From Luteolibacter sp. (GTDB lineage: Bacteria; Verrucomicrobiota; Verrucomicrobiia; Verrucomicrobiales; Akkermansiaceae), in the NCBI GenBank assembly GCA_030696085.1, contig JAUYNL010000070.1, forward strand, positions 38,504 to 102,503: 64,000 bases of DNA, written 5' to 3'. Below the pieces are notes generated by a model. That model was not told the origin of the DNA, did no database searches, and worked only from the letters and a program-made list of their open reading frames with translations. The position numbers and the translations under genes were made by a program. Positions within the stretch are counted from its first letter, which is position 1, and each line of letters starts with the position of its first letter. Of the stretch, positions 1-47,496 are shown in pieces.

Positions 1-1205
1 GAACTGGCGGAGCCGATCCCGTCGCGATACAGATGTTCCAGCACCAGACCGAGCGCCACGGCCCCCCAGCCAACGAAGATGGCGGAGGAATACAGATTGG
101 TGACTGGCGGGCGCCCTTGCAGATACATCCGCGAGAACATGCCGAACGAGTGAACCGCCAGCGCGAGCAACAACAGCAGGAAGGCCGTCTTGCGCAGGCC
201 TTTGGGACAAACCAGCCAGGAAAGACAGGCCAGCAGGAAGGCTCCCACGTAGAGCACCATGCTGTGATAGAAAGGTTCCATCTGGTTGAAGCGCAGTTCG
301 TAGGACGTGCGGCCCGCCCATTCCGGGTGCTCGATGTTGAGCAGGCCCGCGTATTCGCGCGTGACCTTGGAAAACTTGGCGGGATCGTTGGCGCGGAAGG
401 CATCGCCCATGTCCGCCAGGGCGGACACCGAGGCCGGAATCTGGTCCGGGGACTTCACCCGCATCAGGGCGGCTCCGGTGGTGAGCCAGTCGTCCTCCCC
501 GCCACCGGCGGGCGGCGCGACGACCATCAGATAGGAGAACTGCGACTGGCGCTCGTAGCGCGAAACTGCGGCGCGGAGTAAGGCCAGGCGATCACTGTCG
601 AGTGCGCCGGAACCATCGCCGGGGTTCGCAGCCCCGGCTGCCACGGCTTTGGCATAAGTGTCGATTTCCTTGCCGAACCCGGCGGTTCCTTCCTGATGGA
701 TACTGCTCTTGAGCCGCTGATAGAGCTGGATCGAGTTGCCGAGATTGAAGATGGCGGCTTGGAACGGCGTGCGTTTTGCGGACTCCATATCGGCCGCCAG
801 CCTGCCTTCTTCGGTGATCTTGGCGAGATGCGGTTTGAGTTCGTCGTAGGTGCAGTATTTCTTGTCCGCCTGCGGGAAGCCGAACATGCCGAGCACTTCC
901 TGGTTGGCAACAGCGAAAACCGGATAGGCATCCGCTTTCGCGGGATGGAACAACACATCCGCCAGCCAGCGCGATGCGCTGAGTTTGCCGCCCTCGGGCA
1001 GGCGCAGCGTCTGCTTGCCGCGCAGGATGAGCAGCGAGGTGCGGGCGACAGTGTCCATCGGTTTGATGCGACCGCCGGCCAGCACGGGAATGCGGTTGAA
1101 GGCTGAGAGATCGAACTCCCCGGGATCGGTCTTGGGATACATCCACGACGCGCCGATCCACAGGGCGGCCAAAAACAAAACAAGGTAGGGAACGAGGCGG
1201 TTCAT
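1..1205 (-). CDS. ccsA: CcsA/ResC-type cytochrome c biogenesis protein (3' end outside window)
   Basis: Open from an ATG at 1205 to the window edge, so the C-terminus is missing. This is the haem-handling partner of ResB in system II cytochrome c maturation at the inner membrane. After one N-terminal membrane segment comes a periplasmic region of about 260 residues that starts with a motif like IPVLAGGRIKPMDTVAR. Membrane helices follow, including the segment VTNLYSSAIFVGWGAV, which is characteristic of the CcsA family. The start overlaps the ResB stop in an ATGA, so the two are translationally coupled. The position at the downstream end of a multihaem cytochrome cluster fits a dedicated maturation role. 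The long N-terminal domain resembles the extended CcsA proteins of Bacteroidota and the PVC group, from family knowledge. Confidence 0.88.
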   Translation of the reverse strand, partial: MNRLVPYLVLFLAALWIGASWMYPKTDPGEFDLSAFNRIPVLAGGRIKPMDTVARTSLLILRGKQTLRLPEGGKLSASRWLADVLFHPAKADAYPVFAVANQEVLGMFGFPQADKKYCTYDELKPHLAKITEEGRLAADMESAKRTPFQAAIFNLGNSIQLYQRLKSSIHQEGTAGFGKEIDTYAKAVAAGAANPGDGSGALDSDRLALLRAAVSRYERQSQFSYLMVVAPPAGGGEDDWLTTGAALMRVKSPDQIPASVSALADMGDAFRANDPAKFSKVTREYAGLLNIEHPEWAGRTSYELRFNQMEPFYHSMVLYVGAFLLACLSWLVCPKGLRKTAFLLLLLALAVHSFGMFSRMYLQGRPPVTNLYSSAIFVGWGAVALGLVLEHLYRDGIGSAS

Positions 1206-2371
1206 GGCGCTGTGGCGGTTTTTTTGCGGCGGGAGAAGCCGATGAGATGGAAAAGAAACTGATAGATAAGACCGATGGACACGATCACGCAGGCAACGTA
1301 AGGGGCTTGGTAGCTGGGATTGCGCACGACCTGAAGAATGGTGCCGCTGTTGTCCGGCTCGAATCCGGACTGATAGTAGGTATCGCCGCGGTAGCGCAGC
1401 GGATGGTTCATGAAGATGAGCACCTGGCGGCTATCGTCCACCTCGAGATCCGATAGATTGACCTTGCTGGAGAAGTTTTTCGGGATCTGGGTGCCGGGAT
1501 AGGTTTCATGGGTGAAGTCCAGCAAGGTCAGGCTGTAGGGTTTGTAGTAGCGGGCGGGCCTGAGCTGGAGGCTCCATCTGCGTCCGCCGAACTCGAAATT
1601 CTGCGGGGCGGCCAGGGCGTCGGAGACGAGCCAGGTGCCGAGCGAATCTCCGCCCTTGACGGGGATGATTTCAAGCACGGCGCTCATCGAATCGCGATCA
1701 TTCATCCTGGTGGCGCGGGCGGCGGCGGTCACCGAGACGCGCTGGCCGGTTCCCTGACTGGCGGCGGGCACCGATGTGCCGCCCTGGCCGATCATTCCAA
1801 GTTTCGAGTTTTGATAGAACCCGCGCACTGCCAGTTGGAAGGGCAGCGATTCATGGGTGATGGTGCCGCCAGACGCCAGACGTTCGCCGGGCACTGCGGT
1901 GACCTGCTCGGTTTCCGGATCGGTTTGGTCGATGACGGCGAACTCCATTTTCATGCTGTCCTCCGAGTAGTTGCTATTACCGCCTTCCTTGATGCGCATG
2001 AAGCTGTGCACCGAGAACAAATCGGTGGCGAGGCCGCCGGCCAGCATGATGATGAGCCCGAGGTGGGTGAGCTGGATGCCGATTTTTTTCCACGCCCAGG
2101 AGAAGCGGCGGATGTGCGCGGCAATCAGGTTGCCCAGCAAGACCGCGCCAATGAGGTGGCCGCCGGGAAACACGGGCAGAGTGAAGTTTCCGGCAGGTGC
2201 CTGCCACCACACGAACCAGCTTTGAAAATACTCATCCTGCACCAGATAGAGGCCGAAGCGCACCTGCGCCAGCGTTCCCGCGAAGACCAGCACCAGCGCG
2301 GCGGCGAGGCAGAACACCGTAAGCCGCAGCGAGGACACGCCTTCTATCAATTGATTGAGAACTTTCATCAT
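1202..2371 (-). CDS. resB: ResB family cytochrome c biogenesis protein
   Basis: 389 residues. ResB works with CcsA to export haem and ligate it to apocytochromes c on the outer face of the inner membrane. Visible features are an N-terminal hydrophobic segment (about residues 15-35), further helices near 68-90 and 96-118, a long periplasmic region, and a C-terminal helix followed by a basic tail (FSRRKK). The phrase GTLAQVRFGLYLVQDEYF near the first helix is typical of ResB. The stop overlaps the ccsA start, and the upstream lipoprotein gene overlaps the ResB start by four bases. Given at least 20 c-type haem sites encoded upstream, this pair is probably what matures those proteins (inference). 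Confidence 0.9.
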   Translation of the reverse strand: MMKVLNQLIEGVSSLRLTVFCLAAALVLVFAGTLAQVRFGLYLVQDEYFQSWFVWWQAPAGNFTLPVFPGGHLIGAVLLGNLIAAHIRRFSWAWKKIGIQLTHLGLIIMLAGGLATDLFSVHSFMRIKEGGNSNYSEDSMKMEFAVIDQTDPETEQVTAVPGERLASGGTITHESLPFQLAVRGFYQNSKLGMIGQGGTSVPAASQGTGQRVSVTAAARATRMNDRDSMSAVLEIIPVKGGDSLGTWLVSDALAAPQNFEFGGRRWSLQLRPARYYKPYSLTLLDFTHETYPGTQIPKNFSSKVNLSDLEVDDSRQVLIFMNHPLRYRGDTYYQSGFEPDNSGTILQVVRNPSYQAPYVACVIVSIGLIYQFLFHLIGFSRRKKTATAP

Positions 2372-3534
2372 TCAGTGGTGTTGAAACGGATGGACTTGAG
2401 AAAAGTCATGAATTTGGTCTTTTCAGCAGCGACCAGGGCATCCGGGCCTGTGAATTTGAAAAACCAGGTCTCGCCCGCGTGCAGGATCCAGCCGGCGGCA
2501 CAGCGGCTTTGGGCACCGGTGGCATCGATCACCTTGAGCGTCCTGGGACCGGCGGTGACTTCGCTGACCGTGGTGGCGAGCGCCGTTTCATCGATAGGCT
2601 CCAGGCCGATTTGTCCGCGCCAGCGGTTGACGTTGGCGAGATCTCCACCGACATCGCCGGGAAAATGGGTGACGGCGAGTTCTCCCTTCGAGCCATCCGT
2701 TCCGGTGACCGCGATGGTGGCGTAGCGGGCGGCGCTGCCCACTCCCACGGTCCAGCGGTCCGGAAGTTGCCAGGTGACCGGCCCGTCTGCCGCCGGGGTG
2801 GATGAAGCGGACGGCGGCGTGAAGTCCTCTCCGGGCGGGGTGCCGTGCATCGGCACTTTTCCGGGTGCGGCAGGTTTGGCCGATTGCACCCATTGGATGA
2901 AATTGGATTTTTGCGCGGCGGTGAGCGCTGCGTTGCCGCGCATTTTGAAGAACCAGATGCTGTCATTCGTATGGGAGATCACCCCGAGAATGCGTCCGTC
3001 CTTTTTCGCATCGCCGCCTTCGGGGAGTCCTTCGAGATCGACCAACAGAGCGCTTCCAAGCTGGGTGACGAGGGTTTCCGCGGACTGGCGGAATGCGGCC
3101 TCGTCCACGGGCGGCAATCCGAGTTGGGCGCGCCAGCGGTTGGTGTTGTCCAGATCACTGCCCGCGTTGCCACCGAGAATGATCAGGGAAACATCTCCGG
3201 CCGCACCGTCCCCGCCCTCGACGAGGTAGCTGAGCTGACGCATGGCGGAGGCCGCCTGTTTTTTCCAGCCTTCCGGAGGACTGTCAGTCGCGGACGGGCC
3301 GCCTCCGAGGGCACCGAGCGCCGACAATTGATCGGCAGTCATTCCGGCATGCGGGTCACCGTCAGGCGTGCCCGGCACTGCGGCGGCGGGTGGCATGCCC
3401 GCGTGCGGGTTCGCGGTCGTCGCTGGCTCTGCCGGGGCTTCCCTGGCGATGCGATAGACTTTGATTTCCTTGTCTTGTTTGCAGGACGCGGCGGTGAGGA
3501 TGATGAATCCGGCGAGAAAAATAGAGGATCTCAT
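2368..3534 (-). CDS. Predicted lipoprotein with an internal duplication, in the cytochrome cluster
   Basis: About 388 residues from the ATG at 3534. I prefer this start over one further upstream because it begins a lipoprotein signal (MRSSIFLAGF...) ending in a lipobox TAASC. The mature part begins with a proline/alanine/histidine-rich linker that repeats NPHAG/DPHAG. Two copies of one domain follow, each with a phrase of the type N-x-NRWR-x-Q-x-GL-x-P-x-DE. In both copies this sits about 35 residues after a glycine- or aspartate-rich strand and before an aromatic WFFK phrase. I do not recognise the family. It has no haem motif. It overlaps resB by four bases and so is probably co-expressed with it. 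A periplasmic accessory or chaperone for cytochrome assembly is possible, but that is a guess from position. Confidence 0.75.
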   Translation of the reverse strand: MRSSIFLAGFIILTAASCKQDKEIKVYRIAREAPAEPATTANPHAGMPPAAAVPGTPDGDPHAGMTADQLSALGALGGGPSATDSPPEGWKKQAASAMRQLSYLVEGGDGAAGDVSLIILGGNAGSDLDNTNRWRAQLGLPPVDEAAFRQSAETLVTQLGSALLVDLEGLPEGGDAKKDGRILGVISHTNDSIWFFKMRGNAALTAAQKSNFIQWVQSAKPAAPGKVPMHGTPPGEDFTPPSASSTPAADGPVTWQLPDRWTVGVGSAARYATIAVTGTDGSKGELAVTHFPGDVGGDLANVNRWRGQIGLEPIDETALATTVSEVTAGPRTLKVIDATGAQSRCAAGWILHAGETWFFKFTGPDALVAAEKTKFMTFLKSIRFNTTE

Positions 3535-3636
3535 TGAGGCAGTTCGTGCGATATGTGGATACTTAAAACTAATGGGAGTTGCGTCAATCCGGAAGTCGGA
3601 AACGGGCAGCAAATCAGATATTCCAAGCCTTCAGGC

Positions 3637-5310
3637 TCACGCGTCACCAGAGTCGGGTGGTGTGAGTTCGCGGCGGGTCGGCTCGCTGACGCGAGTCTGT
3701 CGGGCACGCAGCAGGGTAAAGGCCACGGAGACCACCAGCAGCACGGTGCCAAGCGCAAGGAACGAGACAATCCGCTGGACCCCCGCCAGTCTCCCGATGC
3801 CGATGAAGAGCAGATAGGCCACGGCAAGCAACAAGGTGCCGTGCCCCATCCAGCGGTATTTCCGTGATTTGCCAACCAGCCAGATCCCGTAATAGCCCAC
3901 GGCAAGGCCGATCCATGAGGGAGCCACCCAGGCGCCTGGCGCGATGTGATGGAGAGCGTGCGGGAAAATGAAGAACGCGCAGGTCAGGTAGGCGTTGCGC
4001 ATCAGCTCGGATTTCAGTTCCAGCCGGTGCTTCTGCCGGTTGAGGACGGCAGCACTGATCAGCGCGACCAGCCCGAAACCCAAACTGATGCCGTTCTCGT
4101 CCTTTGCCACCACCATGTAGCAGGCGACCACGGCCAGGTAGATCATGAAATTTGCAACGACGATGAAACGCGAGCGGAACCAGATGGCGGTGGAAACCAC
4201 CAGCAAACTCTGCAGCGAGAGCCAGACGAACAGCTCCGGCAGGCCGCTGGCCCGGATCAGCGCCATGGTCAGCGCACCGTATCCTGTCATCGCATAGATG
4301 AAGGTCGCAAACCGGCTTTGCTCGCGCACCCAGAACATCACCGCTATTCCTAACAAAACTATCGACATGACCAGATTTGCCATCACAAAGTTCCCGCCAT
4401 GGGCGATCAGCGTGTGCAGCAGAAACATCGCGTAGCCCACCGCATTCGATACCGCGCCGACCTGCGCCACGGCGTCCTCGGTGGCGTGCCTGCGGCGCAA
4501 GGTCATCGCCAGCGCATTAAGAATCATCCATCCCGGCAGGAACCACACGCCCGCAAAGGGACCGGCCGCCACTTCAAGACGATTGCCGAATAGTGGATTG
4601 CCGAGCGCCCAGAGCAGGTAGGCGGGAAATGCGCCGCAACCCGCCATCACCACCAGCCACGGCCAGTCGCGCGATTGTGCCGAGACCGCTGCGGCAAGCA
4701 GCACCGCCGTCACCATGCCTAAGAAATACCAGGGAGTTCCAGCCGCAAGTGCCGCCGCCAGACCGGTCAACAGCGCCACAACCGTTAGATAGGCCGAACG
4801 GCGCGACCAGGCGATGGCGAAGTTGATCGCGAATGCCAGCGAAAGCGCCGCGCAGGCCGCGAAGGATGAAGGTGCCAGCAGCGGCTCCGCGCCGAAGGAA
4901 CACAAGCGCAGGGTCGCGAAAAACAACAATCCCATGCCGGCTGCGCGGAAATTGCTCGATATCAGGGGCAGTGAAGCATGCAGCCACGAGGCAAGCCCTA
5001 GCAACGCCAGCGCCAGCAGCCACCCGGCAGTGGATGGCAGTACCGCGGGAAACTGCGGCCACGGCTGCGAGAGCGTCAGGGCCGCGCCGATCGCCAGCGC
5101 CATGATGCCGATCCGGGCGAAGAGCGTCTGCCCCACCGCCATCTCAAACTCACCTTCGACCGGGGCGGCGATGGCTGTCTCGAAGCTACATTTTTCCGCC
5201 GGAGCCTCCTCATGAAGACCGAGCAGCAGTTCCACCCGGGCGAGCCGTTGCTCCAAGCGGGCAAGCCTCTCCGCTTGGTCTTCAGGTAGCTGAGGAGAGA
5301 CGGGGTCCAT
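3637..5310 (-). CDS. Large polytopic membrane protein, DUF2339-like
   Basis: 557 residues. The N-terminus is a short coiled-coil-like stretch (residues about 10-35, repeated LARLEQRLARVELL), and about 14-16 hydrophobic helices occupy residues 65-545. This layout, coiled coil then a long run of helices without charged loops, matches DUF2339-type membrane proteins. That assignment is by overall look, not by a diagnostic motif. It lies between the NrfD-module genes and the ResB/CcsA pair on the same strand with short gaps. It could be an accessory membrane subunit or a transporter. No catalytic residue is recognisable. Confidence 0.7.
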   Translation of the reverse strand: MDPVSPQLPEDQAERLARLEQRLARVELLLGLHEEAPAEKCSFETAIAAPVEGEFEMAVGQTLFARIGIMALAIGAALTLSQPWPQFPAVLPSTAGWLLALALLGLASWLHASLPLISSNFRAAGMGLLFFATLRLCSFGAEPLLAPSSFAACAALSLAFAINFAIAWSRRSAYLTVVALLTGLAAALAAGTPWYFLGMVTAVLLAAAVSAQSRDWPWLVVMAGCGAFPAYLLWALGNPLFGNRLEVAAGPFAGVWFLPGWMILNALAMTLRRRHATEDAVAQVGAVSNAVGYAMFLLHTLIAHGGNFVMANLVMSIVLLGIAVMFWVREQSRFATFIYAMTGYGALTMALIRASGLPELFVWLSLQSLLVVSTAIWFRSRFIVVANFMIYLAVVACYMVVAKDENGISLGFGLVALISAAVLNRQKHRLELKSELMRNAYLTCAFFIFPHALHHIAPGAWVAPSWIGLAVGYYGIWLVGKSRKYRWMGHGTLLLAVAYLLFIGIGRLAGVQRIVSFLALGTVLLVVSVAFTLLRARQTRVSEPTRRELTPPDSGDA

Positions 5311-5367
5311 GAGGTGAGGTGCGCGGCATGGCGCGGGTTTCCCGATTCAACCGGGCGCGGGACCGCA

Positions 5368-5823
5368 TCAGCCGCATCCGCAGCCACCGGCAAGCTGATC
5401 GGCCAGTTCGCAAATCGATTCGTAATAGTCATCCTTCTCCATGCCGAGGGCGGCGGCACCGAAGGTTTCGGCATCCTCGCTGGAGGCGAAGTCGCCGTAG
5501 TTGACCGCCACGAGCTGATAGAGCACCAGGTGTGGCACGCGCTGGAGCTGGGTCATGAAAACCGGATGCACGCGGATTTCAAATCCCTCCTCGGGTTTTT
5601 CGCCGTGCGGGTGGGCATAGGCGGCTTCACCGTCGTGCAGGCCATCCGCAGTGAATTTCACCTCGCAGGGATAGCGGACGAGCGCGCGGTCCAGCAGAAT
5701 TTCCTGAAGTTCCTTCCAGCCGATTTTCGGCCCGAAACGCCCGCGAATTTCCAAGCCCTTGTCGGCGACATGCTCATTGAGGGATCGCTTGGCATCCTCG
5801 GCAGTGGGGTGGCTTTGCGTCAT
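5368..5823 (-). CDS. Small conserved-looking protein with C-terminal GGCGCG
   Basis: 151 residues, soluble, no signal peptide. It starts 24 bases after the NrfD-type gene ends and so is probably in the same transcript. The middle contains a strand-rich region (RYPCEVKFTADGL, GFEIRVHPVF) and the C-terminus ends in GGCGCG, which could bind a metal or a cofactor. I do not recognise the family. A cytoplasmic assembly factor for the neighbouring iron-sulphur/membrane complex is one possibility suggested only by position and the terminal cysteines. Confidence 0.7.
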   Translation of the reverse strand: MTQSHPTAEDAKRSLNEHVADKGLEIRGRFGPKIGWKELQEILLDRALVRYPCEVKFTADGLHDGEAAYAHPHGEKPEEGFEIRVHPVFMTQLQRVPHLVLYQLVAVNYGDFASSEDAETFGAAALGMEKDDYYESICELADQLAGGCGCG

Positions 5824-5846
5824 GCGGAAGAAACGTGTGACGGGTT

Positions 5847-7127
5847 TCAGTGTGCTTCAATCGCCGTTTCCACCTTGGGTGGCAGGCCGTCTTCAAGCAC
5901 CCCGCAGCCTTCATTGGCACGCGCGAGCCGGCCTTGCAGGATCGGCACCGCCATCCGCAGCAGGATCGTGTAAACCAGCAGGCCGAAGGCCCAGATGCCG
6001 AACGAGATCAAGGTTTCATTGGTCGATGGCTGGTATTCCACGATCATGCCCAGAGTGCTCGGCACGAATCCGGGGATGACCATGCCCATGCCTTTCTCGA
6101 TCCAGATGCCGATGATCGACAGCACACAGGCGAGGTTGAGCCACTTGAGGCTGCGGCTCACCGGCAGCACCAGCAGGAACATCGCGATCAGGTTGAAGAC
6201 AATCGCCGTCCAGATCCATGGCACCAGCGCGTTGTGGCCGTGCAGGCCGAAGAACAAGTATTTGGCCGAGGCCACATGCGTGGCACCGGTGTAGAATTCC
6301 TTGAACAACTCGTTGATGAGCAGGAATACGTTGATGATCATCGAAACCTGGACGATCGAGCGCAGCGTGAGCAGCGCCTTGTCGCTGATCGGGTAATGGG
6401 TGACCGCGCGGATGACTTGCAGCGCCAGGATGATCAGCGCGGGCCCTGCGGTGAACGCGGAGGCGAGGAAACGCGGGCCGACGATCGACGAGTTCCAGAA
6501 CGGCCGCCCGCCGAGACCGACGTAAAGGAAAGCGGTGACGGTGTGGATCGAGACTGCCCAGGCGATGGCGATGAACACGAAGGGAATGTAGAACCAACGC
6601 GACGGCGTGCGGCCGCAGTAGCGGCAATAAAGCAGATAGCCGCAAATGTGGACGTTGAGCAGCAGGTAGCCATTGAGCACCACCACGTCCCAACTCAGCA
6701 TCGAGGCGGGAAAGTTCAATTGCCCGATGCCGGGAATCAGGTGCCAGAAGCGGTCCGGCCGCCCGAGGTCCACGGTGACGAAGGCGAGGCACATCAGGAT
6801 GGCGGCGACGGCAAGCAACTCGCCGAAAACCACCAGGTCGTGGAGCTCCTTGTTTCGATAAATATACACGGGAATGACCATCATCACGGCGGCGGCGGCG
6901 ACACCGACGAGGAAGGTGAAGTTGCCGATGTAAACACCCCACGAAACCTCATCGCCCATGCCGGTGACGATCAGTCCGTGGACGAATTGCTTGCAGTAGG
7001 CGTTGATGCCAAGAAGCACGATGGCGGTGAGCAGTCCCATCCAGGCGTAGTAGCGCCAATCGCCGACGAAGGCGATTCTCGCACAGCGGGTCAGGAACGT
7101 GATGTAGTTGCGAACGGCTTGGGTCAT
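5847..7127 (-). CDS. NrfD/PsrC/HmcC-type integral membrane quinol-interacting subunit
   Basis: 426 residues with nine or ten hydrophobic helices. Proteins of this family sit in the inner membrane and exchange electrons between the quinone pool and a partner iron-sulphur subunit. The helix pattern and phrases such as GDEVSWGVYIGNFTFLVGVAAAAVMM (quoted in part), FVTVDLGRPDRFWHL and the conserved histidine-rich turn SIHTVTAFLY are typical of NrfD/DsrP/HmcC proteins. The start overlaps the stop of the ferredoxin gene by four bases, the usual arrangement for an NrfC-NrfD pair. No molybdopterin or other catalytic subunit is encoded nearby, unlike polysulphide or nitrite reductase operons. Confidence 0.92.
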   Translation of the reverse strand: MTQAVRNYITFLTRCARIAFVGDWRYYAWMGLLTAIVLLGINAYCKQFVHGLIVTGMGDEVSWGVYIGNFTFLVGVAAAAVMMVIPVYIYRNKELHDLVVFGELLAVAAILMCLAFVTVDLGRPDRFWHLIPGIGQLNFPASMLSWDVVVLNGYLLLNVHICGYLLYCRYCGRTPSRWFYIPFVFIAIAWAVSIHTVTAFLYVGLGGRPFWNSSIVGPRFLASAFTAGPALIILALQVIRAVTHYPISDKALLTLRSIVQVSMIINVFLLINELFKEFYTGATHVASAKYLFFGLHGHNALVPWIWTAIVFNLIAMFLLVLPVSRSLKWLNLACVLSIIGIWIEKGMGMVIPGFVPSTLGMIVEYQPSTNETLISFGIWAFGLLVYTILLRMAVPILQGRLARANEGCGVLEDGLPPKVETAIEAH

Positions 7128-8071
7128 ACGTCAAAGTAGTAAAAGAATCTGGGAGAGGTTCCGAGTTCCTCCTTGAGCTGGATGAACACCCGTTTGGTGG
7201 AGAGAATTTTGCTGACCTCGCTCTCGGGATCGAGGATGTTGCCGAATTTTCGGGCACCGGCCGGGCACACTTCGAGGCAGGCCGGGTAGCGGCCGGTGCG
7301 CGTGCGCTGGACGCAGAAATGACATTTCTCCATGACGCCGATCTTGCGCGGGCGGTTGCCGAGATAGGCCATCTCCGGATTGAGGCGTTCCTTGGGAATC
7401 GAGGGTTTTGCGAAATTGAAATGGCGCGCGCCGTAGGGACAGGCGGCCATGCAGTAGCGGCAACCGATGCACCAATCATAGTCGATCACGGTGATGCCGT
7501 CCTTTTCCTGCCAGGTGGCGTTGACCGGACAAACCTTGACACAGGGAGGATTCTCACATTGCTGGCATTGCACCGGCATGTAGAAGAAGCCTTTTTCAGG
7601 AACTTTTTCCGGATCGTAGTTGTGATCGGACTTCTCAATATCGAGCGAGCCGTGCGGCATTTTGAGCACGCGGATGTATTGGATTTCCGGGCTGCGCGAC
7701 TGGTTGTTCTCGGCCACGCAGGCATGCACGCACTTGCGGCAGCCGATGCAGCGGGTGAGGTTGAGCGCATAGACGAACTCGACACCGTCCATCGGCCGGA
7801 GGTCGCGGACGTGGGGGCGCACGTCGTATTGCTTTTCAACTTCGCGGGAGATGCGCGCAAGTACCTTGGCCATGTCGGCGGGCGACATTTCCTTGTAATG
7901 CTTTTGGAGGAACTCCTCGGTGGAGGTGAACTTTTCAAGGTCCATCAGCGGCTTGAGACTGGCGGCCAGCGCGGCGGCCCCTGCACCGAAGATGGCGGAC
8001 GAGCGCAGGAAACTGCGGCGGCGCATCGAGGGAGCCGGGGCTTTTCCGGGGGCATCGGATTGCGAATTCAT
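7124..8071 (-). CDS. Tat-exported ferredoxin-like subunit with four [4Fe-4S] motifs
   Basis: 315 residues. The N-terminus carries a twin-arginine signal (RRRSFLRSS at residues 17-25) followed by an alanine-rich hydrophobic stretch, so the protein is exported folded to the periplasm. Four cysteine clusters follow: CIGCRKCVHAC, CQQCENPPCVKVC, CIGCRYCMAAC, and CHFC with a later CLEVC. This is the NrfC/PsrB/HmcB/DsrO arrangement, which wires a membrane NrfD subunit to a redox partner. Here the likely partners are the multihaem cytochromes encoded on either side. Coupling to the NrfD gene by overlap supports a two-subunit complex. Confidence 0.92.
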   Translation of the reverse strand: MNSQSDAPGKAPAPSMRRRSFLRSSAIFGAGAAALAASLKPLMDLEKFTSTEEFLQKHYKEMSPADMAKVLARISREVEKQYDVRPHVRDLRPMDGVEFVYALNLTRCIGCRKCVHACVAENNQSRSPEIQYIRVLKMPHGSLDIEKSDHNYDPEKVPEKGFFYMPVQCQQCENPPCVKVCPVNATWQEKDGITVIDYDWCIGCRYCMAACPYGARHFNFAKPSIPKERLNPEMAYLGNRPRKIGVMEKCHFCVQRTRTGRYPACLEVCPAGARKFGNILDPESEVSKILSTKRVFIQLKEELGTSPRFFYYFDV

Positions 8072-8074
8072 AGG

Positions 8075-8731
8075 TCAGTGAGTGTTGGATTCGCCGAAAT
8101 GGGCGGTGGCGACGGGATTCACGCGCAGATGGTTGGGGCGCGGAGCGGGCGCGCGCTGGGGAAACTTCGGCGAGTGGGGATTGTGGCAATTCACGCAATC
8201 CTGTTTGTGATACTCGCCTTTGGATCGGTCCCAGTAGCCGCTGGTGCGGCCATGCGAGCCATGTTCCCAATCGCGGTGGGTCGGACCATGGCAACTGCCG
8301 CAGAGCTGGGTGCTTTCCTCAAACTTCAAGGAATGACCGTCGCGCGTTTGCAGGACCAGCAGGTTTTCGCTGTTGTGGCAGTTGAAGCAATCGTTGTTGC
8401 GGCCGTGGCTGCCGTGGCCCATGACAATGTTTTCGTGTTCATCGGGCACTACCACATGGTTGTCCTTGTCGTAGGTCAGCTCGAGTTTCTTGCCCTCTTC
8501 GTGGCATTCATAACAACTGAAGGCCAAAAGTTCGTCCTCATCTTCCTTTTTGACCAGATCCGCGTAGGAGCGCCGCCAGGTTTGGGGCTGGAGGAACTCT
8601 TCATCCACCAATGGAAGTTGCCGCACCGGTTCGACGCGCCCCCAGAGGTCCAGGGAGAACGAAATCACCAGTGCCGCAAACACCACTCCGAGGGTGGTCA
8701 AGGCGAGACGGATTTTTTTGGGATCATTCAT
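8075..8731 (-). CDS. Membrane-anchored tetrahaem cytochrome c
   Basis: About 218 residues from the ATG at 8731. I chose this start because a basic stretch (NDPKKIR) then leads directly into a single membrane anchor (about residues 9-30); an ATG at 8767 is also in frame. Four haem-binding motifs are visible: CYECH, CFNCH, CGSCH and CVNCH. Additional histidines in HGSHGRN and HGSHGRT, each repeated just before a CXXCH, are likely distal ligands. It ends three bases before the ferredoxin start. A periplasmic electron carrier linked to the NrfD/ferredoxin pair, as in Hmc-type complexes, is the most likely role. Confidence 0.88.
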   Translation of the reverse strand: MNDPKKIRLALTTLGVVFAALVISFSLDLWGRVEPVRQLPLVDEEFLQPQTWRRSYADLVKKEDEDELLAFSCYECHEEGKKLELTYDKDNHVVVPDEHENIVMGHGSHGRNNDCFNCHNSENLLVLQTRDGHSLKFEESTQLCGSCHGPTHRDWEHGSHGRTSGYWDRSKGEYHKQDCVNCHNPHSPKFPQRAPAPRPNHLRVNPVATAHFGESNTH

Positions 8732-8841
8732 GGACTTGTGGTGGATGCGATTGGTGGTGACAGGCACCCGGATGGGACGCGGACGCGGGCGGCGGCTTCG
8801 GTGTGAAACCGCCTGCCCGGAGTGCCGCGGACTTGATTCGA

Positions 8842-9162
8842 TTATTTGAGGGAGCGGACGTATTTTACGACGGCGGCGATATCGTCATCGCTGAGGCCCT
8901 TGATCGGCTTCATGCGTTGCTTGCCGTCTTCGATCACGCCTTCCTTGATTGACTTGACGACCTGTTCGTCGCTGAGTTTTTTCTGCTCCACGGTCAGGTC
9001 CTTGATCTTGAGTTTTTTGCCCATGGGGGTGGCACCCTTGCCGTCCGCGCCGTGGCATTTCGCGCAATTTTTCGAATACACTTCCGCGCCGTCGGCGGCG
9101 CTCGCACTCGTTGCAGTGGCGACAAAGGCCGCGGTGGCGGCAATCATGATGATGCTTTTCAT
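8842..9162 (-). CDS. Small monohaem cytochrome c (class I)
   Basis: 106 residues with a clear signal peptide (MKSIIMIAATAAFVATATSASA). The mature protein has one haem site, CAKCH, near its N-terminus and the fold phrase GKQRMKPIKGLSDDDIAAVVKYVRSL, where the methionine is the probable sixth ligand. This is a short soluble periplasmic carrier. It is clearly similar in layout to the other small cytochrome at 10944-11252, so the two look like paralogues with different positions in the chain. It probably shuttles electrons between membrane and outer-membrane cytochromes (inference). Confidence 0.9.
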   Translation of the reverse strand: MKSIIMIAATAAFVATATSASAADGAEVYSKNCAKCHGADGKGATPMGKKLKIKDLTVEQKKLSDEQVVKSIKEGVIEDGKQRMKPIKGLSDDDIAAVVKYVRSLK

Positions 9163-9328
9163 GGATGTTTGGTTGTTTGATTTTGATTCGAAACAGAAAC
9201 GGGCAAAATGAAACGATTGCTCGTTCTATCCGATAGCATGAAGGATCAATTTCCCGAAGAAACCAGCAACGCCAAAATCGTTGATGCGGAAGAAATGAAA
9301 AAATCCGCGCATATAGGACTTACGGGTC

Positions 9329-10816
9329 CTATTCCATGTTCTGGCCGTTGTGGCACTCGGCGCAGTTCGGTTCCAGGTATTCCGAATCCAGATGGAAGAA
9401 GTCGTGGCCCTTGAGATTGACCTTCTCCAATTCCGCACCGGCTCCCTGGGCGGTGATCAGGTGGCAGGCGTTGCAATCGCTGCCCTTGATGGTCTTGCCA
9501 CGGTCTTCGTTGAAAAGGTTGCCGGCATGGCAGCGGAAACAGCCGTTGGTTTCCTTGTGGCCGATGTGATCCGGGTAGGCGCGCCAGTCGGCCTTCATTT
9601 CAGGGTAGAAATTGTTTTCGTAAATGACGAGAACCTCTTTGATCAGTGCATCCACGCGCGGATCGTCCGGGTATTCGGCATGCAGGAAGGCCGCTATTTT
9701 CTCGTTTGCCTCGGCGCGGGTGGAATAGGGCTGGACGAGCGCTTCAACCACCTTGGCCTTGGCCCAGGGGATCGACGGGGCGATGCGGCCCATCGCCATG
9801 GCCTGATCCACTGCGGCATTGGGACTGAGGAATTTGTGTGCCGGGCGGTTGTGGCAATCCATGCAGTCCATCGCCCGGATGGGGTGCTTGGAAATGTCGT
9901 CCTTGAAGTCCTCGCTGCGGTATTCGGTGACCTTGCCGTCGGCATCGGTGACGCGCACCCAGGGGATTTGCTGGCGCTCGGGATCCAGCGCTATGAACTC
10001 GATCTTGTTGGAAACATTCATGTGCGAGTGAATGCCCTCGACCACGCCATGCACGGGATCGCTGCCGCCGACCTTGAGGACCATCTGCACGGTGAAGGGC
10101 GAGTTGGTTTCATCGGCCAGGAAGCGCTTGAATTTCCGGTGCACGTTGCCGATGTGTTTTTCCGACCAATGGCAGGACTGGCAGGTTTCCTCGGCCGGGC
10201 GCTGGTTGACGTTGTGAAGCCGGACCGGCCGGTCGAAATTCCCCAGCACGGTGCGGTAGAGCTGGCGCACGCCGCTCACCTTGGTGCGGATGTAATTGCC
10301 GGCTCCCGGTCCCACATGGCAGGCGACACAGGCGACCTGGGCATGGGCGGAATGCTGGTATGCATTGTATTGCGGCTCCATCGGGACGTGGCAGGTCGCC
10401 CCGCAGAAGGAATTGGTTTCCGTGAGATGATAGGTCTGGTAGCTGCCGAGCGCGGTGAGGAAGATGAATCCAAAGCTGCCGATGACGAACGCAGTCAGCA
10501 GGCGGCGGTCGCGCCTGCGCGAGAGATTGACATGCAGGATGAACGGAGTCTGCACACCCGCTAGCGCCTTGCGGACTTGGCACGTTTCCAGGATGTAGCC
10601 AAGCAGAACCAAGCCCAAGCCCGCAAACAGGAACATTGGAGTCACCACGTAGGCGAGGATGCCCATGTAGGGGTTGGCGTGGACGGCGAACAGGTCCACC
10701 GCGAAGAGCAGCATGAACGCAAACAGCGCGGCCACGACGAGCACCGCGCCAGAGAGACTCAGCCAGTTGCGCAGGCGGCTGAGATGGCTTGCTTTGAGTG
10801 GAGGTTTCTCATTCAT
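9329..10816 (-). CDS. NapC/NrfH-like heptahaem cytochrome c with N-terminal membrane domain
   Basis: 495 residues from the ATG at 10816, preferred because the sequence before it lacks features of a signal and the next codons (NEKPPLK) lead into three membrane helices (about 17-45, 50-75, 105-130). Seven haem sites follow: CGATCH, which has three residues between the cysteines, then CVACH, CQSCH, CMDCH, CFRCH, CNACH and CAECH. The first site is followed by VPMEPQ, matching the NapC/NrfH quinol-dehydrogenase pattern in which methionine serves near the first haem. Members of this family take electrons from menaquinol and pass them to periplasmic partners. It is longer and carries more haems than NapC itself (four). 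A 166-base gap separates it from the next gene downstream. Confidence 0.9.
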   Translation of the reverse strand: MNEKPPLKASHLSRLRNWLSLSGAVLVVAALFAFMLLFAVDLFAVHANPYMGILAYVVTPMFLFAGLGLVLLGYILETCQVRKALAGVQTPFILHVNLSRRRDRRLLTAFVIGSFGFIFLTALGSYQTYHLTETNSFCGATCHVPMEPQYNAYQHSAHAQVACVACHVGPGAGNYIRTKVSGVRQLYRTVLGNFDRPVRLHNVNQRPAEETCQSCHWSEKHIGNVHRKFKRFLADETNSPFTVQMVLKVGGSDPVHGVVEGIHSHMNVSNKIEFIALDPERQQIPWVRVTDADGKVTEYRSEDFKDDISKHPIRAMDCMDCHNRPAHKFLSPNAAVDQAMAMGRIAPSIPWAKAKVVEALVQPYSTRAEANEKIAAFLHAEYPDDPRVDALIKEVLVIYENNFYPEMKADWRAYPDHIGHKETNGCFRCHAGNLFNEDRGKTIKGSDCNACHLITAQGAGAELEKVNLKGHDFFHLDSEYLEPNCAECHNGQNME

Positions 10817-10943
10817 GGAATTTGTTTTTCCGTAGTTGTGAGTGATCAAAAAATAGCGGCATCCCGGAAACAAGATGCCGCCTGAGCAACCGGGTTGGTG
10901 ATGGAGAGAGGGCGCTCTAACAGCACATCAACCGGGATGGTGG

Positions 10944-11252
10944 TTATTTTTTGAACTTGCGGATGTAAGCCACGAGCTCCTTGGCCTCGGCTTCGGTCAC
11001 CTTGTCCTTGTAGGTCTTCATCTTGCCCATGCCTTCGAGGATCGCCTTGACGCCTTCGGCATCGGACCATTTCTGGCCTTCCTCGGTGGTGTAGTCAATG
11101 ACTTTGCTTTTCTTGCCCATGGCCGTCTGGCCCCTGCCATCCTTGCCGTGGCAGGATGCACAACTCTTGTTGTAGATCGCCTCGGCATCGCCGAAGGCAA
11201 GGGGCGAGAGCGCGAGAAGCGCCAAGAATGTGGTGGAAGATGGGCATTTCAT
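10944..11252 (-). CDS. Small monohaem cytochrome c (class I)
   Basis: 102 residues from the ATG at 11252, which gives a normal signal peptide (MKCPSSTTFLALLALSPLAFG). A start further upstream would put charged sequence before the signal. One haem site, CASCH, is followed by a probable distal methionine in EGMGKMKTYKD. It closely parallels the small cytochrome at 8842-9162 in length and motif order. Located between the heptahaem membrane protein and the outer-membrane barrel gene, it is a good candidate for the soluble carrier bridging the periplasm. Confidence 0.88.
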   Translation of the reverse strand: MKCPSSTTFLALLALSPLAFGDAEAIYNKSCASCHGKDGRGQTAMGKKSKVIDYTTEEGQKWSDAEGVKAILEGMGKMKTYKDKVTEAEAKELVAYIRKFKK

Positions 11253-11330
11253 GGGGATATGGGATGGGTTTGAGGTGAAAACCGACCAAAGAACCCGAAG
11301 CATGAAGCCACGAACCAACCGTGAGCGGTT

Positions 11331-13505
11331 TTAGAACTGGAAGCGCAGGCCGGTCATGAGCGAATGGGCTCCTGCGGAAAGATTGGCGTAGGAGTCGTCC
11401 TCGTAGTAATCGAACTGATAGCCGACGACGAGTTGTTTGGTATCGTCGATGTCATAGGCGGCGCCGAGCGAGAAGGTGTGGAGCACGTTGTCAAGCGAAT
11501 CATCCACGGTCGCCAGTTCGTCGGCGACATCGCCGCTGGCGAGATTGCCGTCAGAGAGTGTCATGGTATAGGATGCCAGCAGTTTGAGATTTTCGCTCAA
11601 CTGGTAGTCACCGCCAAAGGTGAGCATGTAAACATCGATGGTGGAGTCCGTGTAAATGCCGGGTTCAAAGACCGTATTCGCTTCAAACCGACGGCTCTTG
11701 CTTTCAAAATAGAGCAGGTCCGCATCCATCTGCATCCAGTCGAATCCGGCGTAGAGGTTCAGATCCTTGGAGGGATTGTAGCTGACCATGGCCCCGGCGG
11801 ACTGGAGGGTGTTGCTGACATCCTGGGCATAGGAGAGGAGCGGCGCCACTTTATCATTGAACCGCAGGTCGTTGTTTTCCGCACTGCGGTAGTTGTAGTA
11901 TGCCGACCAGACGAGACCGTTTTCCGCCGTGTAGGTGACTGCGGATTTCAGACCGAGCACTTCCTCGGGATCGGTGACGAGGCCGGTTTCATCGGCGGTG
12001 CGATAAACACCGGTCACGCGGAAATTGTAGCCATTCCAGTTGAGCGCGCTCCAGCGCAGATACATTTCGTCATAGACGGTATCCGTGCGGTAGAGTGAGA
12101 CGCCTGGGTGAATCTCGGCGGGAGTGATGCTGCTGTAAGTCAAATCGCGTGATTTGTCCATGTGGCGCCAGCCGAGGGCGAAGGTGGAGCCCCATCCTTC
12201 CGGACGAACCAAGGCCGCCAGGTCGGTGTCCCATGACTCGATATCGTTGATTCGAGTGCCGAGGGTTTGTCCCAGGTTGATGTTGGTCAGGGTTCCGGCC
12301 GGAAAGGTCGAATTGTTTTCACGCTGGGCCCAACGCACCTCGCCTTCCATTCCGAACACGGGGGTGAACGAGGTGTCGAAGTTGATGAACGCCTCCTGAT
12401 TGACGATTTCCCCGGTATTGTAGTCCTGAGCCGACACATAGGAAGGGAAGGATTCCTGCTTGAGGCGGAAATCAAGATAACCGGCCGAGACGTTGGTATG
12501 ATCACCGAACTGACGCTTCAGATTGAGCGAATTGGTCAAGCGGCTGGCGTCCGGGATATAGCCCACAGGGCGGGTGGGATTGGTCACCGTGTATGGCGGT
12601 GAGACGATCGGAGTGAGGTCGCCAAGCATGGCGGTGCGCACGCGGTTGTCGAAGCGTTCGTAGCTACCGAGGTAGTTGATGTCGAACCAATCGCCGGGTG
12701 AAGCCTGCACTTTGAGAGTAAAGCGGTTCATGTTTTCATCCACATCCCGCGAGTAGGTGCGCCAGCGTTCGTTGACACGCGTGCCACCGGAACCACCGCT
12801 GAGATCGCTGCCGCCGAGCACATAGGATTGCATGGCAAGACCGTCACGCAGGTATCCGTCCCAAGCGATGTCGATCCGGGTCTTCTCGCCGAGCGCACCG
12901 GGCTTGATCTGGAAATTCGCGCCGTAGCTGAAGCGGTCCACGAAATAATCCGTGTCGGAGGAATCAAAATTGTTCCGCGAAAGAAAGCCGGAATTGGTGT
13001 TGGCGTTGGTGGGGTTGTATCTGGAATCCACACCGACGTTGGGGCCGAAGAGCCCTTCGACGACATTCGGAGAGAATTGGTAGCCGAGGCTGCCGGTAGT
13101 GGTGCGCAGGAAGTTGTAGTAGGAAGTCAGTGCGAAGGCCTCCTCATCCCATAACAACTCGCCGCCGTGGCGGTAAAACCCCTCGCCCCAGCGGGTGACG
13201 CTGAGCGACTTGTCATCGCCGTAGGCGTAGTTCAGATCGAAGTCCACATCGGCATAGAAACCCGAGCGGTAGTTGCCGTTGTAGCCCTTGCGGACGTTGT
13301 AGCGGTCCAGATAGGTGTAGCCGGAGTGGCCGGGGGCGTCGAAATAGTCGAAGCCGTAGAGTTTCGTGGTGATGCTGCCGGTAAAGTCACCTTGGGAGGC
13401 TGCGGGCTGGACCTCGGGTTCCGCCACCGGACCGGCCAAGACTGGTTGAAGGGCGAGGCAACCGAGTCCTACCAGAGGAAGATAAAGATAACCTGTCGTT
13501 TTCAT
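11331..13505 (-). CDS. Outer-membrane beta-barrel, MtrB/PioB-like
   Basis: 724 residues. A signal peptide is followed by a long series of alternating aromatic strands (for example DKSLSVTRWGEGFYRHG, FALGWRHMDKSRDLTYSS), and the chain ends in LRFQF, a typical C-terminal barrel signal. Length and placement directly after an MtrA-like multihaem gene match the MtrB/PioB family of porins that hold a decahaem cytochrome across the outer membrane. I did not see the N-terminal CXXC that Shewanella MtrB has. The match rests on barrel architecture and context. It starts 21 bases after the octahaem gene ends, consistent with co-expression. Confidence 0.82.
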   Translation of the reverse strand: MKTTGYLYLPLVGLGCLALQPVLAGPVAEPEVQPAASQGDFTGSITTKLYGFDYFDAPGHSGYTYLDRYNVRKGYNGNYRSGFYADVDFDLNYAYGDDKSLSVTRWGEGFYRHGGELLWDEEAFALTSYYNFLRTTTGSLGYQFSPNVVEGLFGPNVGVDSRYNPTNANTNSGFLSRNNFDSSDTDYFVDRFSYGANFQIKPGALGEKTRIDIAWDGYLRDGLAMQSYVLGGSDLSGGSGGTRVNERWRTYSRDVDENMNRFTLKVQASPGDWFDINYLGSYERFDNRVRTAMLGDLTPIVSPPYTVTNPTRPVGYIPDASRLTNSLNLKRQFGDHTNVSAGYLDFRLKQESFPSYVSAQDYNTGEIVNQEAFINFDTSFTPVFGMEGEVRWAQRENNSTFPAGTLTNINLGQTLGTRINDIESWDTDLAALVRPEGWGSTFALGWRHMDKSRDLTYSSITPAEIHPGVSLYRTDTVYDEMYLRWSALNWNGYNFRVTGVYRTADETGLVTDPEEVLGLKSAVTYTAENGLVWSAYYNYRSAENNDLRFNDKVAPLLSYAQDVSNTLQSAGAMVSYNPSKDLNLYAGFDWMQMDADLLYFESKSRRFEANTVFEPGIYTDSTIDVYMLTFGGDYQLSENLKLLASYTMTLSDGNLASGDVADELATVDDSLDNVLHTFSLGAAYDIDDTKQLVVGYQFDYYEDDSYANLSAGAHSLMTGLRFQF

Positions 13506-13526
13506 GGTTGTTGTTCGGATTGGCGG

Positions 13527-14324
13527 TTAGTAGCGGAGGTGTTGGTCGGTGGTGCTGCCATGGATGGATCCGTGGCAGGAGGTGCAGTTTCTAAGAGCCG
13601 CGCCCGAGACGGTCGCCCCGCCGCCGTTGCCTGCGGCATTGTGGCCGTGGCGGTTCTGGGCGATGCTGTGGCATTGGAGGCAGAGCATCGGCTGGCTGGC
13701 GGTGAGCATTTTGCGGATCGGCGAGCCGTGCGGGTTGTGGCAGTTGGTGCAGTTTTCGGCGACCGGCGGGTGTTCGAAGACGTGCGGACCTTGTTTGTCC
13801 TGGTGGCAGGAGGTGCAGAGACGGGTGGTGCTGGAGAGCGTGGTGCGCTTGTCACCGTGATGATCGTGGCAACTGGTGCAGTCCATCGCGCCTTCCTTGA
13901 TGGGATGGTGGGAGGCCATGTTGAATCGGGCGTTCACATCCTGGTGGCAGGCGATGCAGTTGCTGGTGCCTTTTTTGATGAGACTCTTGTCACCGCCGCT
14001 TTCGGCGTGTTTGGAGCCGGGTCCGTGGCATGCTTCGCAGCCGCGTTCGAGGCCCTTGTTGCCGGTGGTGATGATCTTGCCGTGAGTGCGGTCGTGGAAA
14101 TTTGAGAGAATATCGCCGTGGCATTCCTTGCAGGTTTCCGAGCCGACAAATGAGGCCCCTGGGATGCTAGGAGTATTCACCAGGGCGCGACCGCCGGTGG
14201 CGCAGGACATCAGGATCAGACCCGCCGACGCCCCGCCTCCCGCGATCCACAGGAAGTTCTGACGCAGGTTGCGAATCCAGCGGCTGGCAGCCGAGGCCCA
14301 TGGGAGATTCCAAGCGATTTTCAT
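13527..14324 (-). CDS. Octahaem c-type cytochrome, MtrA/DmsE-like, probable lipoprotein
   Basis: 265 residues. The N-terminus is a hydrophobic segment ending at a lipobox-like LILMSC (Cys41). Eight haem sites follow between about residues 65 and 250: CKECH, CEACH, CIACH, CTSCH, CTSCH, CTNCH, CLQCH, CTSCH. Spacing and phrases such as FVGSETCKECHGDI and the HGKI turn match DmsE/MtrA-type cytochromes, which normally carry ten haems, so this one is two short. It is the first gene of the cluster and directly precedes the barrel gene, as dmsE precedes dmsF. It is the likely outer-membrane conduit, assembled within the barrel. Confidence 0.88.
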   Translation of the reverse strand: MKIAWNLPWASAASRWIRNLRQNFLWIAGGGASAGLILMSCATGGRALVNTPSIPGASFVGSETCKECHGDILSNFHDRTHGKIITTGNKGLERGCEACHGPGSKHAESGGDKSLIKKGTSNCIACHQDVNARFNMASHHPIKEGAMDCTSCHDHHGDKRTTLSSTTRLCTSCHQDKQGPHVFEHPPVAENCTNCHNPHGSPIRKMLTASQPMLCLQCHSIAQNRHGHNAAGNGGGATVSGAALRNCTSCHGSIHGSTTDQHLRY

Positions 14325-47032: not shown

Positions 47033-47443
47033 ATGCAGAATCCCCTCTCCACTGAAAAGCTCACCGCCCTGGAAGAGCGGATGGTGGCGCTTGGGATTTC
47101 GGAGGGCGAATTGCTCGAAAAATTCGTCCGCGGCTCCGGTGCCGGCGGGCAGAAGATCAACAAGACCTCCAACTGCGTGTTTCTCAAACACCTGCCCAGC
47201 GGAGTGTGCATCAAGTGCCAGATGGACCGATCACGGGAGCTCAACCGTTTCCTCGCCCGGCGCGAACTCTGCGAACAGCTCGAATCCATCCGCGACGGCA
47301 AAAGCACCGCCAAGACCCAGGCCATTGAGAAAATGCGCCGCCAGAAACGCAGGCGCTCACGCCGCTCGAAACAACGCTCGGTCGCCGACAAACGCCTGCT
47401 TTCGCAGAAAAAATCCCTGCGTCGTCCGCCTTCCGGCGAGTGA
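47033..47443 (+). CDS. Release-factor-like protein with GGQ motif (ArfB/PrfH type)
   Basis: 136 residues. The GGQ motif that enters the ribosomal peptidyl transferase centre is in RGSGAGGQKINKTSN. The C-terminal third is very basic (RRQKRRRSRRSKQRS), as in ArfB/YaeJ-type rescue factors that bind the empty mRNA channel. The domains that recognise stop codons in RF1/RF2 are absent. The gene stops at 47443 and the hemX frame begins close after. It is a plausible ribosome-rescue hydrolase. Confidence 0.85.
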   Translation: MQNPLSTEKLTALEERMVALGISEGELLEKFVRGSGAGGQKINKTSNCVFLKHLPSGVCIKCQMDRSRELNRFLARRELCEQLESIRDGKSTAKTQAIEKMRRQKRRRSRRSKQRSVADKRLLSQKKSLRRPPSGE

Positions 47444-47496
47444 TGCCACACTTTCGGCTTTCCAGCGTTACCGAATTCCAGCATTTACCGCCTCCC

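Follow-up and report, generated by a model that had tools for sequence, protein, structure and literature searches.

Does a run of multihaem cytochrome genes in an uncultivated Luteolibacter bacterium form a route that takes electrons from quinol in the membrane to an extracellular acceptor? The genes lie at one end of a 64,000-nucleotide stretch of DNA (hereafter, the window) from a draft genome that is 96% complete. As the preliminary description stated, they are thirteen in number, co-directional and adjacent, all on the minus strand, and run from position 14324 past the window's first base. The features of the block, starting with gene 1, are as follows.

13527..14324, minus strand: octahaem c-type cytochrome, MtrA-related, 265 aa, 8 CXXCH
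11331..13505, minus strand: MtrB-like 26-strand outer-membrane barrel (from predicted structure), 724 aa
10944..11318, minus strand: monohaem cytochrome c, first copy, one CXXCH, PF13442/PF00034 over cut-off; start likely the ATG at 11252
10855..10882, minus strand: terminator-like hairpin found by scan, 12-bp stem, 4-nt loop, T-rich tail
9329..10873, minus strand: heptahaem inner-membrane cytochrome fitting the ImcH type, ORF of 514 aa, first ATG at 10816
8842..9162, minus strand: monohaem cytochrome c, second copy, 106 aa, PF13442/PF00034 over cut-off
8075..8767, minus strand: membrane-anchored tetrahaem cytochrome of the DsrP module, 230 aa, 4 CXXCH, one hydrophobic helix at 21-39
7124..8071, minus strand: DsrO-like FeS protein, 315 aa, NF045797 181.6 bits (below the cut-off of 200), Fer4_11 over cut-off
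5847..7127, minus strand: DsrP-family NrfD membrane subunit, 426 aa, NF045798 423.1 bits (cut-off 350), PF03916
5368..5823, minus strand: 151-aa protein, function unassigned, no Pfam or NCBIfam family
3637..5310, minus strand: DUF2339 membrane protein, 557 aa, PF10101 37.3 bits (cut-off 33.6)
2368..3612, minus strand: putative lipoprotein, 414 aa, no Pfam family over cut-off
1202..2371, minus strand: ResB, System II cytochrome c assembly, PF05140 69.1 bits (cut-off 24.6)
1..1205, minus strand, continuing past the window: CcsA, System II cytochrome c assembly, PF01578 86.1 bits (cut-off 29.9)

Haem sites across the block number 8+1+7+1+4 = 21, in line with the earlier count of at least 21: 20 of CXXCH form and a single CX3CH, which belongs to the heptahaem protein. 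These sites are not chance occurrences: the eight of the octahaem protein are invariant in a 20-row alignment, and the seven of the heptahaem protein are retained in every one of 20 rows, the window among them.

MtrB has 26 strands. The barrel model also contains 26, and its best structural match is MtrB (6r2q_B), well above every other structure; the protein ends in LRFQF, as had been read from its translation. Its gene lies 21 bp from that of the octahaem protein, which matches the MtrA chain 6r2q_A at E 9e-34. The MtrB-like predicted fold and the similarity to MtrA support the MtrA-MtrB-type conduit first proposed. The family models suggested at the outset gave a more qualified answer: the window barrel falls below the Pfam MtrB_PioB model, which 13 of 17 members of its family match, and the octahaem protein scores 167.7 bits against the NCBIfam DmsE model (TIGR03508), short of the cut-off of 192.2. 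With eight haems rather than ten, it stands outside the MtrA/DmsE decahaem subfamily. It is likely a lipoprotein, judging by L-M-S-C at residues 38-41, a lipobox read by eye in the alignment.

The heptahaem protein had been called NapC-like, and PF03264 (NapC/NirT) indeed matches it at 126-235, its first three motifs being at 157, 182 and 231. It also carries the published hallmarks of ImcH, however, and is not simply NapC-like. It has three N-terminal hydrophobic helices (hydropathy peaks 34-52, 72-90 and 125-143), a CX3CH at 157 beside the transmembrane region, whose first cysteine is kept in 20 of 20 alignment rows, and six CXXCH. Geobacter ImcH, in the portions of PMC6295460 and PMC12307469 that describe it, likewise has three transmembrane helices, an adjacent CX3CH, six CXXCH, a length of about 500 aa and NapC similarity at the third helix and first motifs. 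With the class set by the description in PMC6295460, the window protein would fit the ImcH type. A search for solved structural relatives found none at E 0.001, and ImcH had no match in the plasmid record collection. According to the account of ImcH in that 2018 survey, quinol oxidation was the only role in which the protein had until then been implicated, and its homologues had turned up in Fe(III) reducers only and in no oxidiser. That a NapC-like protein fits this description strengthens the case for outward flow.

imcH is present in 20 of 118 relatives, and the block of barrel, cytochrome and imcH recurs in the genus. The octahaem, barrel and cytochrome genes all lie upstream of imcH in 16 of the 19 other relatives that have it; two more show a partial barrel at a contig end, making 18 with a barrel in all, and in the last just 362 bases upstream of imcH are available. 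Directly after imcH, only 10 of the 19 have the lipoprotein-ResB-CcsA trio, two are cut by contig ends and seven are without the trio in the stretch fetched; the putative lipoprotein gene precedes ResB in all ten relatives' loci that have ResB. ResB and CcsA form a System II pair, and the CcsA cut by the window edge is complete at 626 aa in the neighbouring sequence (L001). The window departs from the genus block in two ways: it has an MtrAB pair of a different type, and a DsrP module is inserted before the trio. Its barrel matches the genus-type barrels weakly: hhalign with 15 of the 16 gives a probability of 75 over 181 columns. Flank trees and distribution suggest that the outer-membrane pair may have been swapped in; such a swap is not resolved by the octahaem tree of 55 chosen rows, where support is 46. 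Recent transfer of the pair is unsupported by base composition (GC of 57.2-62.2% against 54.9-62.8% in other genes).

What had been described as a ferredoxin/NrfD pair is better described as DsrO/DsrP-like with a tetrahaem partner that has one predicted transmembrane helix. The N-terminus of the DsrO-like protein, read by eye, is twin-arginine-like. The module resembles the DsrJOP part of DsrMKJOP in combining an FeS protein, an NrfD-type subunit above the DsrP cut-off and a multihaem cytochrome; it differs in its tetrahaem cytochrome, where DsrJ is trihaem, in the sub-threshold DsrO score (181.6 against 200) and in the lack of a DsrA match in the genome, on which ground sulfate reduction, to which the names DsrP and DsrO might point, was rejected. 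Homologues of the 151-aa protein occur near DsrP in loci L077 and L087-L090, and the DUF2339 protein recurs alongside NrfD modules in relatives. Among ten relatives' loci whose DsrP module is without an inserted domain, NapA adjoins in eight and an octahaem HAO-like protein in three, one locus having both. These neighbours make the module a likely plug-in quinol dehydrogenase, which is likely the second quinol inlet here and may serve beside nitrate reductase in relatives. The two quinol entry points first described are therefore retained as predictions, of ImcH and DsrP type. Since two inlets near a porin-cytochrome pair recur in 5 of the 19 relatives, that arrangement is not unique.

The DsrP of close relatives has a cyclic-nucleotide-binding domain inserted in frame between two of its membrane helices; at the four same-genus loci that have this domain, the stretch examined contains neither NapA nor an HAO-like gene. 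The window DsrP has no such insert. In a 45-row tree, made up of 30 of the 120 matches listed (drawn with a domain-bearing query), 14 loci and the window, it is sister to the domain-bearing clade with supports of 97 and 100, and loss of the domain by the window DsrP is unsupported. The AF2 model of a domain-bearing homologue is poor (pLDDT 59.7, pTM 0.50). Tentatively, and with more doubt than confidence, we suggest that the second inlet could be a portable quinol dehydrogenase on which a second messenger acts as a valve, cAMP or a similar molecule gating export directly in the domain-bearing relatives, and that the window could hold the ungated sister form, wired into an imcH-mtrAB block with a swapped-in outer-membrane pair. 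With the domain-bearing relatives it would become possible to test whether a second messenger controls a respiratory inlet directly.

From the gene content, haem sites and similarities observed, we infer, with reasonable though incomplete confidence, that the block passes electrons from quinol in the membrane to an external acceptor, the direction being likely outward. The ImcH-type protein would oxidise quinol; alternatively, DsrP would do so and pass electrons through the DsrO-like FeS protein to the tetrahaem cytochrome. The electrons would then cross the periplasm on one or both monohaem cytochromes and reach the octahaem protein, which would sit in the barrel and deliver them to the cell surface, where humic substances or ferric iron would fit as acceptor. 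ResB and CcsA would attach haem to the block's cytochromes.

The original claim that no terminal reductase subunit is present bears on this reading, and it held up over a wider search. In the 12 kb past the window edge no reductase was found (nine ORFs against Pfam, CcsA being the tenth), nor were NrfA, DsrA or molybdenum reductases found in the draft genome; with no NrfA match, nitrite ammonification was rejected. The genome's only PF00384 match, which adjoins NuoH, is NuoG of complex I (463.7 bits to its best model, cut-off 470.05), and a molybdenum reductase was set aside as sink. DMSO-type extracellular respiration with such an enzyme nearby, to which the 167.7 bits against DmsE might point, is thus very improbable: the DmsE cut-off is unreached and the reductase would have to sit in the missing 4% of the draft. 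The reverse traffic, in which octahaem protein and barrel take electrons from Fe(II) or reduced humics and pass them through the monohaem cytochromes to oxidases, the quinone-linked proteins running backwards as proposed for MtoAB/PioAB, has more to recommend it. The block is without an extracellular MtrC-type cytochrome, like PioAB and MtoAB, which are tied to Fe(II) oxidation (PMC6344600); the two PF22113 proteins of the genome, one nonahaem and one sub-threshold pentahaem, are both away from it. Both monohaem cytochromes have domains of cytochrome-oxidase type, and the genome carries aa3- and cbb3-type oxidases, so inward flow is feasible. We nevertheless consider it unlikely, given the restriction of ImcH homologues to Fe(III) reducers in the 2018 survey's account and the company that the DsrP module keeps elsewhere, with NapA and HAO-like proteins.

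The hairpin between the first monohaem cytochrome gene and imcH (genes 3 and 4) raises another alternative, since it parts the outer-membrane genes from both quinol inlets. Its energy was reached by none of 100 shuffles of the window junction, a T-tailed hairpin is present in 17 of 18 relatives having the junction, and 8 of 12 stem pairs show changes on both sides, counts helped by selection of the best T-tailed hairpin per junction. In a sigma-70 scan 0 sites were seen, where shuffles gave 4.3. A terminator-like hairpin that is conserved tells against a single transcript, and the suggestion that all thirteen genes are transcribed as one is therefore doubtful. Genes 1-3 might then be an outer-membrane unit and genes 4-13 a separate quinol unit feeding oxidases or another periplasmic acceptor, all the more as the octahaem-barrel pair occurs without the other window genes in loci L004-L006. 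Yet 16 of 19 relatives also have the two units side by side and two more show partial barrels there, transcription can run on through a terminator, and the genome search found no acceptor of NrfA, DsrA or molybdenum type; two independent systems seem to us quite unlikely. Outward export by the block as a whole remains our preferred reading.

A literature search found no paper describing a conduit pair combined with two quinol oxidase families and cytochrome assembly. Maturation genes beside a conduit, part of the combination first singled out as unusual, have a precedent: the relevant part of Baker et al. 2022 (PMC8805035) describes mtrCAB clusters that also contain NetBCD or CymA together with ccm genes, so that there as here the mtr genes are accompanied by a quinol dehydrogenase and by genes for cytochrome maturation. 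The maturation genes of those clusters belong to System I (ccmA-I), four strains having System II elsewhere, whereas here System II is in the block. Shewanella MtrCAB (6r2q) shares the barrel fold and an MtrA-related multihaem partner but has ten haems in place of eight, an MtrC that the block is without, and CymA in place of the ImcH- and DsrP-type inner-membrane partners. If the reading is right, electron export would be built from swappable modules, namely outer-membrane pair, quinol inlet and assembly genes. The 2018 ImcH survey, in the part concerned with gene neighbourhoods, reported no mtrAB or mtoAB adjoining imcH (PMC6295460), whereas MtrA-like and barrel genes adjoin it here and in the genus; the block is thus a defined gene set for asking whether Verrucomicrobia respire humics or iron. 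Porin-multihaem clusters in freshwater Verrucomicrobia, mentioned in the preliminary description, were indeed published by He et al. 2017 (PMC5615132), who in the section on these clusters describe a porin gene next to one for a periplasmic cytochrome that has eight haem sites, as here, and propose extracellular electron transfer to humics; that section mentions neither ImcH nor a DsrP module nor ResB/CcsA next to the pair. Such pairs would gain an inner-membrane partner of known function, the ImcH type. Measured against the sections of these papers that bear on the subject, porin-octahaem pairs in Verrucomicrobia were already known; neither imcH adjoining mtrAB-like genes nor the DsrP insertion is described there.

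All 13 genes described as a co-directional block lie on the minus strand, with intergenic gaps of -4 to 166 bases; CcsA is interrupted by the window edge and completed beyond it, ending at C55:37828 of the draft genome. The 21 haem motifs counted in the preliminary description were confirmed as 8, 1, 7, 1 and 4 sites per cytochrome, in sum 20 CXXCH and one CX3CH. A reductase just past the edge had been raised against electron export; no respiratory reductase was found among the nine ORFs run against Pfam in the 12 kb past it, which encode a protease, an acyltransferase, a glycosyltransferase, a methyltransferase, a short-chain dehydrogenase, a DNA methyltransferase, an integrase, an RCC1-repeat protein and one protein without a family. 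Immediately downstream of CcsA lies a 1513-aa protein with RCC1 repeats and a cadherin domain (L001:6681-11222, beyond the edge).

The electron-export block is real and recurrent, in a new combination. Counting the window's own genome, 20 of 118 relatives carry its ImcH-type heptahaem protein; all belong to a single genus, which also has members without the protein. Octahaem, barrel and cytochrome genes stand upstream of imcH in 16 of the 19 other carriers; at loci L035 and L037 the genus-type barrel, the form found beside imcH in other members, is partial at a contig end, and L045 has just 362 bases upstream of imcH. Lipoprotein, ResB and CcsA directly follow imcH in 10/19, are interrupted in two (L032, L036) and are missing from the stretch fetched (1.9-12.1 kb) in 7/19. 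The joining of two quinol inlets with maturation genes, singled out earlier as unusual, is present, but its elements are shared: ResB-CcsA follows imcH in those ten carriers, and a different module (trihaem, FeS, NrfD) lies near imcH in 5/19. Between imcH and the lipoprotein, where the window has its DsrP module, a module is found in 0/11 relatives with the lipoprotein seen.

Downstream of the first cytochrome gene lies a hairpin with a 12-bp stem and a T run, its energy matched by 0 of 100 junction shuffles. Among 18 relatives having the junction, 17 carry a T-tailed hairpin; in L028 the stem is kept and the tail is weaker. Across the 16 distinct sequences, 98.4% of cells are paired, a figure favoured by the choice of hairpins for folding, and 8 of 12 pairs have changes on both sides; shuffles equalled these values in 0/500 and 1/500 cases, respectively, and a slid control was 40-52% paired. 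Conservation of this terminator-like hairpin indicates that the outer-membrane genes and the quinol genes probably belong to separate, or attenuated, units.

The second inlet had been described as a ferredoxin/NrfD pair. Its NrfD protein exceeds the DsrP model cut-off (423.1 against 350 bits), whereas the FeS protein scores slightly below that of DsrO, and the cytochrome partner is tetrahaem, unlike trihaem DsrJ. When 118 genomes in all were searched for the DsrP-module protein, 16 others matched at >80 bits, and 14 of these loci were taken (G011 and G019, fragments, were omitted). An inserted domain is absent from ten; each of these has NapA (8/10; scored with a model at one locus and elsewhere with tblastn) or an octahaem HAO-like protein (3/10) nearby, one having both, suggesting that the DsrP module is a plug-in quinol dehydrogenase. 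Two genomes, G050 (L085, L039) and G040 (L086, L032), hold a NapA cluster with a DsrP module on one contig and an ImcH-MtrAB-like block on another, so inlet and conduit occur apart within one genome. In the same-genus loci with the insert (L087-L090), NapA and HAO-like reductase are both absent within the stretch fetched. Here the DsrP/NrfD subunit carries an in-frame cyclic-nucleotide-binding domain after residue ~243:

L087:8304-10025, DsrP/NrfD subunit, domain read by eye
L088:8131-9852, DsrP/NrfD subunit, domain matched by PF00027 at 74.7 bits
L089:2528-4447, DsrP/NrfD subunit, domain read by eye
L090:3535-5454, DsrP/NrfD subunit, domain read by eye

Both domains are present in 120/120 database matches listed (P0138-P0257; 8000 scored). 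In our literature search the sole paper naming both NrfD/DsrP and this domain (PMC13332983) deals, in its accessible part, with formate dehydrogenase. At one locus, L042/L088 (G054:C176), octahaem-barrel, ImcH and ResB/CcsA stand in a row with two further modules, a trihaem NrfD module and a DsrP module that bears the cyclic-nucleotide domain, giving three predicted quinol inlets.

In a concatenated ImcH-ResB-CcsA tree (ten loci, midpoint-rooted), the window joins L028, L029, L038 and L039 with support 100, and these flanking genes place it inside the genus. The octahaem proteins of the same four loci share 41-43% identity with the window's, and genus barrels are barely alignable with its barrel. 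The window-type barrel has a strong match in its own genome only among 260 family genomes (1/260, plus one weak match); across the class 2/384 genomes match, the window's own and a second one. Three verrucomicrobial MAGs have this barrel, with no further window genes around the octahaem-barrel pair within the sequence fetched, and in one gammaproteobacterial MAG its neighbour is a decahaem protein. Given genus-placed flanks against a divergent, scattered pair, the simplest reading of these sequences is that the MtrAB-like pair was replaced in place. Support is 46 at the point of the octahaem tree bearing on this swap, and base composition of the block genes gave no trace of it.

Named relatives point to Verrucomicrobiota as the phylum of the draft. 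Elsewhere in this 96%-complete draft, three COX1 matches include one aa3-type and one cbb3-type oxidase, the one molybdopterin match has NuoG as best model, and neither NrfA nor DsrA was found. PF01578 matches the block's CcsA and a second CcsA on C41, so the block's assembly genes are not the genome's only ones; the third match is accounted for by a HemX-like ORF at window 47440-48264, which precedes a frame for glutamyl-tRNA reductase (347 bits with hemA, cut-off 209.55). On contig C50, a partly NrfH-like nonahaem cytochrome frame (L101:1072-2289) adjoins a GMC-type oxidoreductase frame (weak matches); the pair is possibly a periplasmic dehydrogenase feeding electrons in.

The block's content fits the outward export claimed for it, and electron flow through it is likely, if unproven, to run in that direction. 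In a search mostly outside subscription journals, we found no paper that combines imcH with mtrAB-like genes, ResB/CcsA and a DsrP module. The accessible parts of two papers report a porin with an octahaem cytochrome in six Verrucomicrobia MAGs (He et al. 2017, PMC5615132) and CymA, NetBCD and System I genes occurring with mtrCAB (Baker et al. 2022, PMC8805035). The heptahaem protein, claimed as NapC-like, does have NapC similarity, covering the third helix and motifs one to three, but its whole layout of three hydrophobic helices, a CX3CH adjoining the third and six CXXCH agrees instead with the published description of ImcH (PMC6295460, accessible part). There, Geobacter ImcH forms are 495-519 aa, ImcH is implicated in quinol oxidation only, and no mtrAB/mtoAB was adjacent to imcH; in the available portion of a review (PMC12307469), ImcH operates above -0.1 V.
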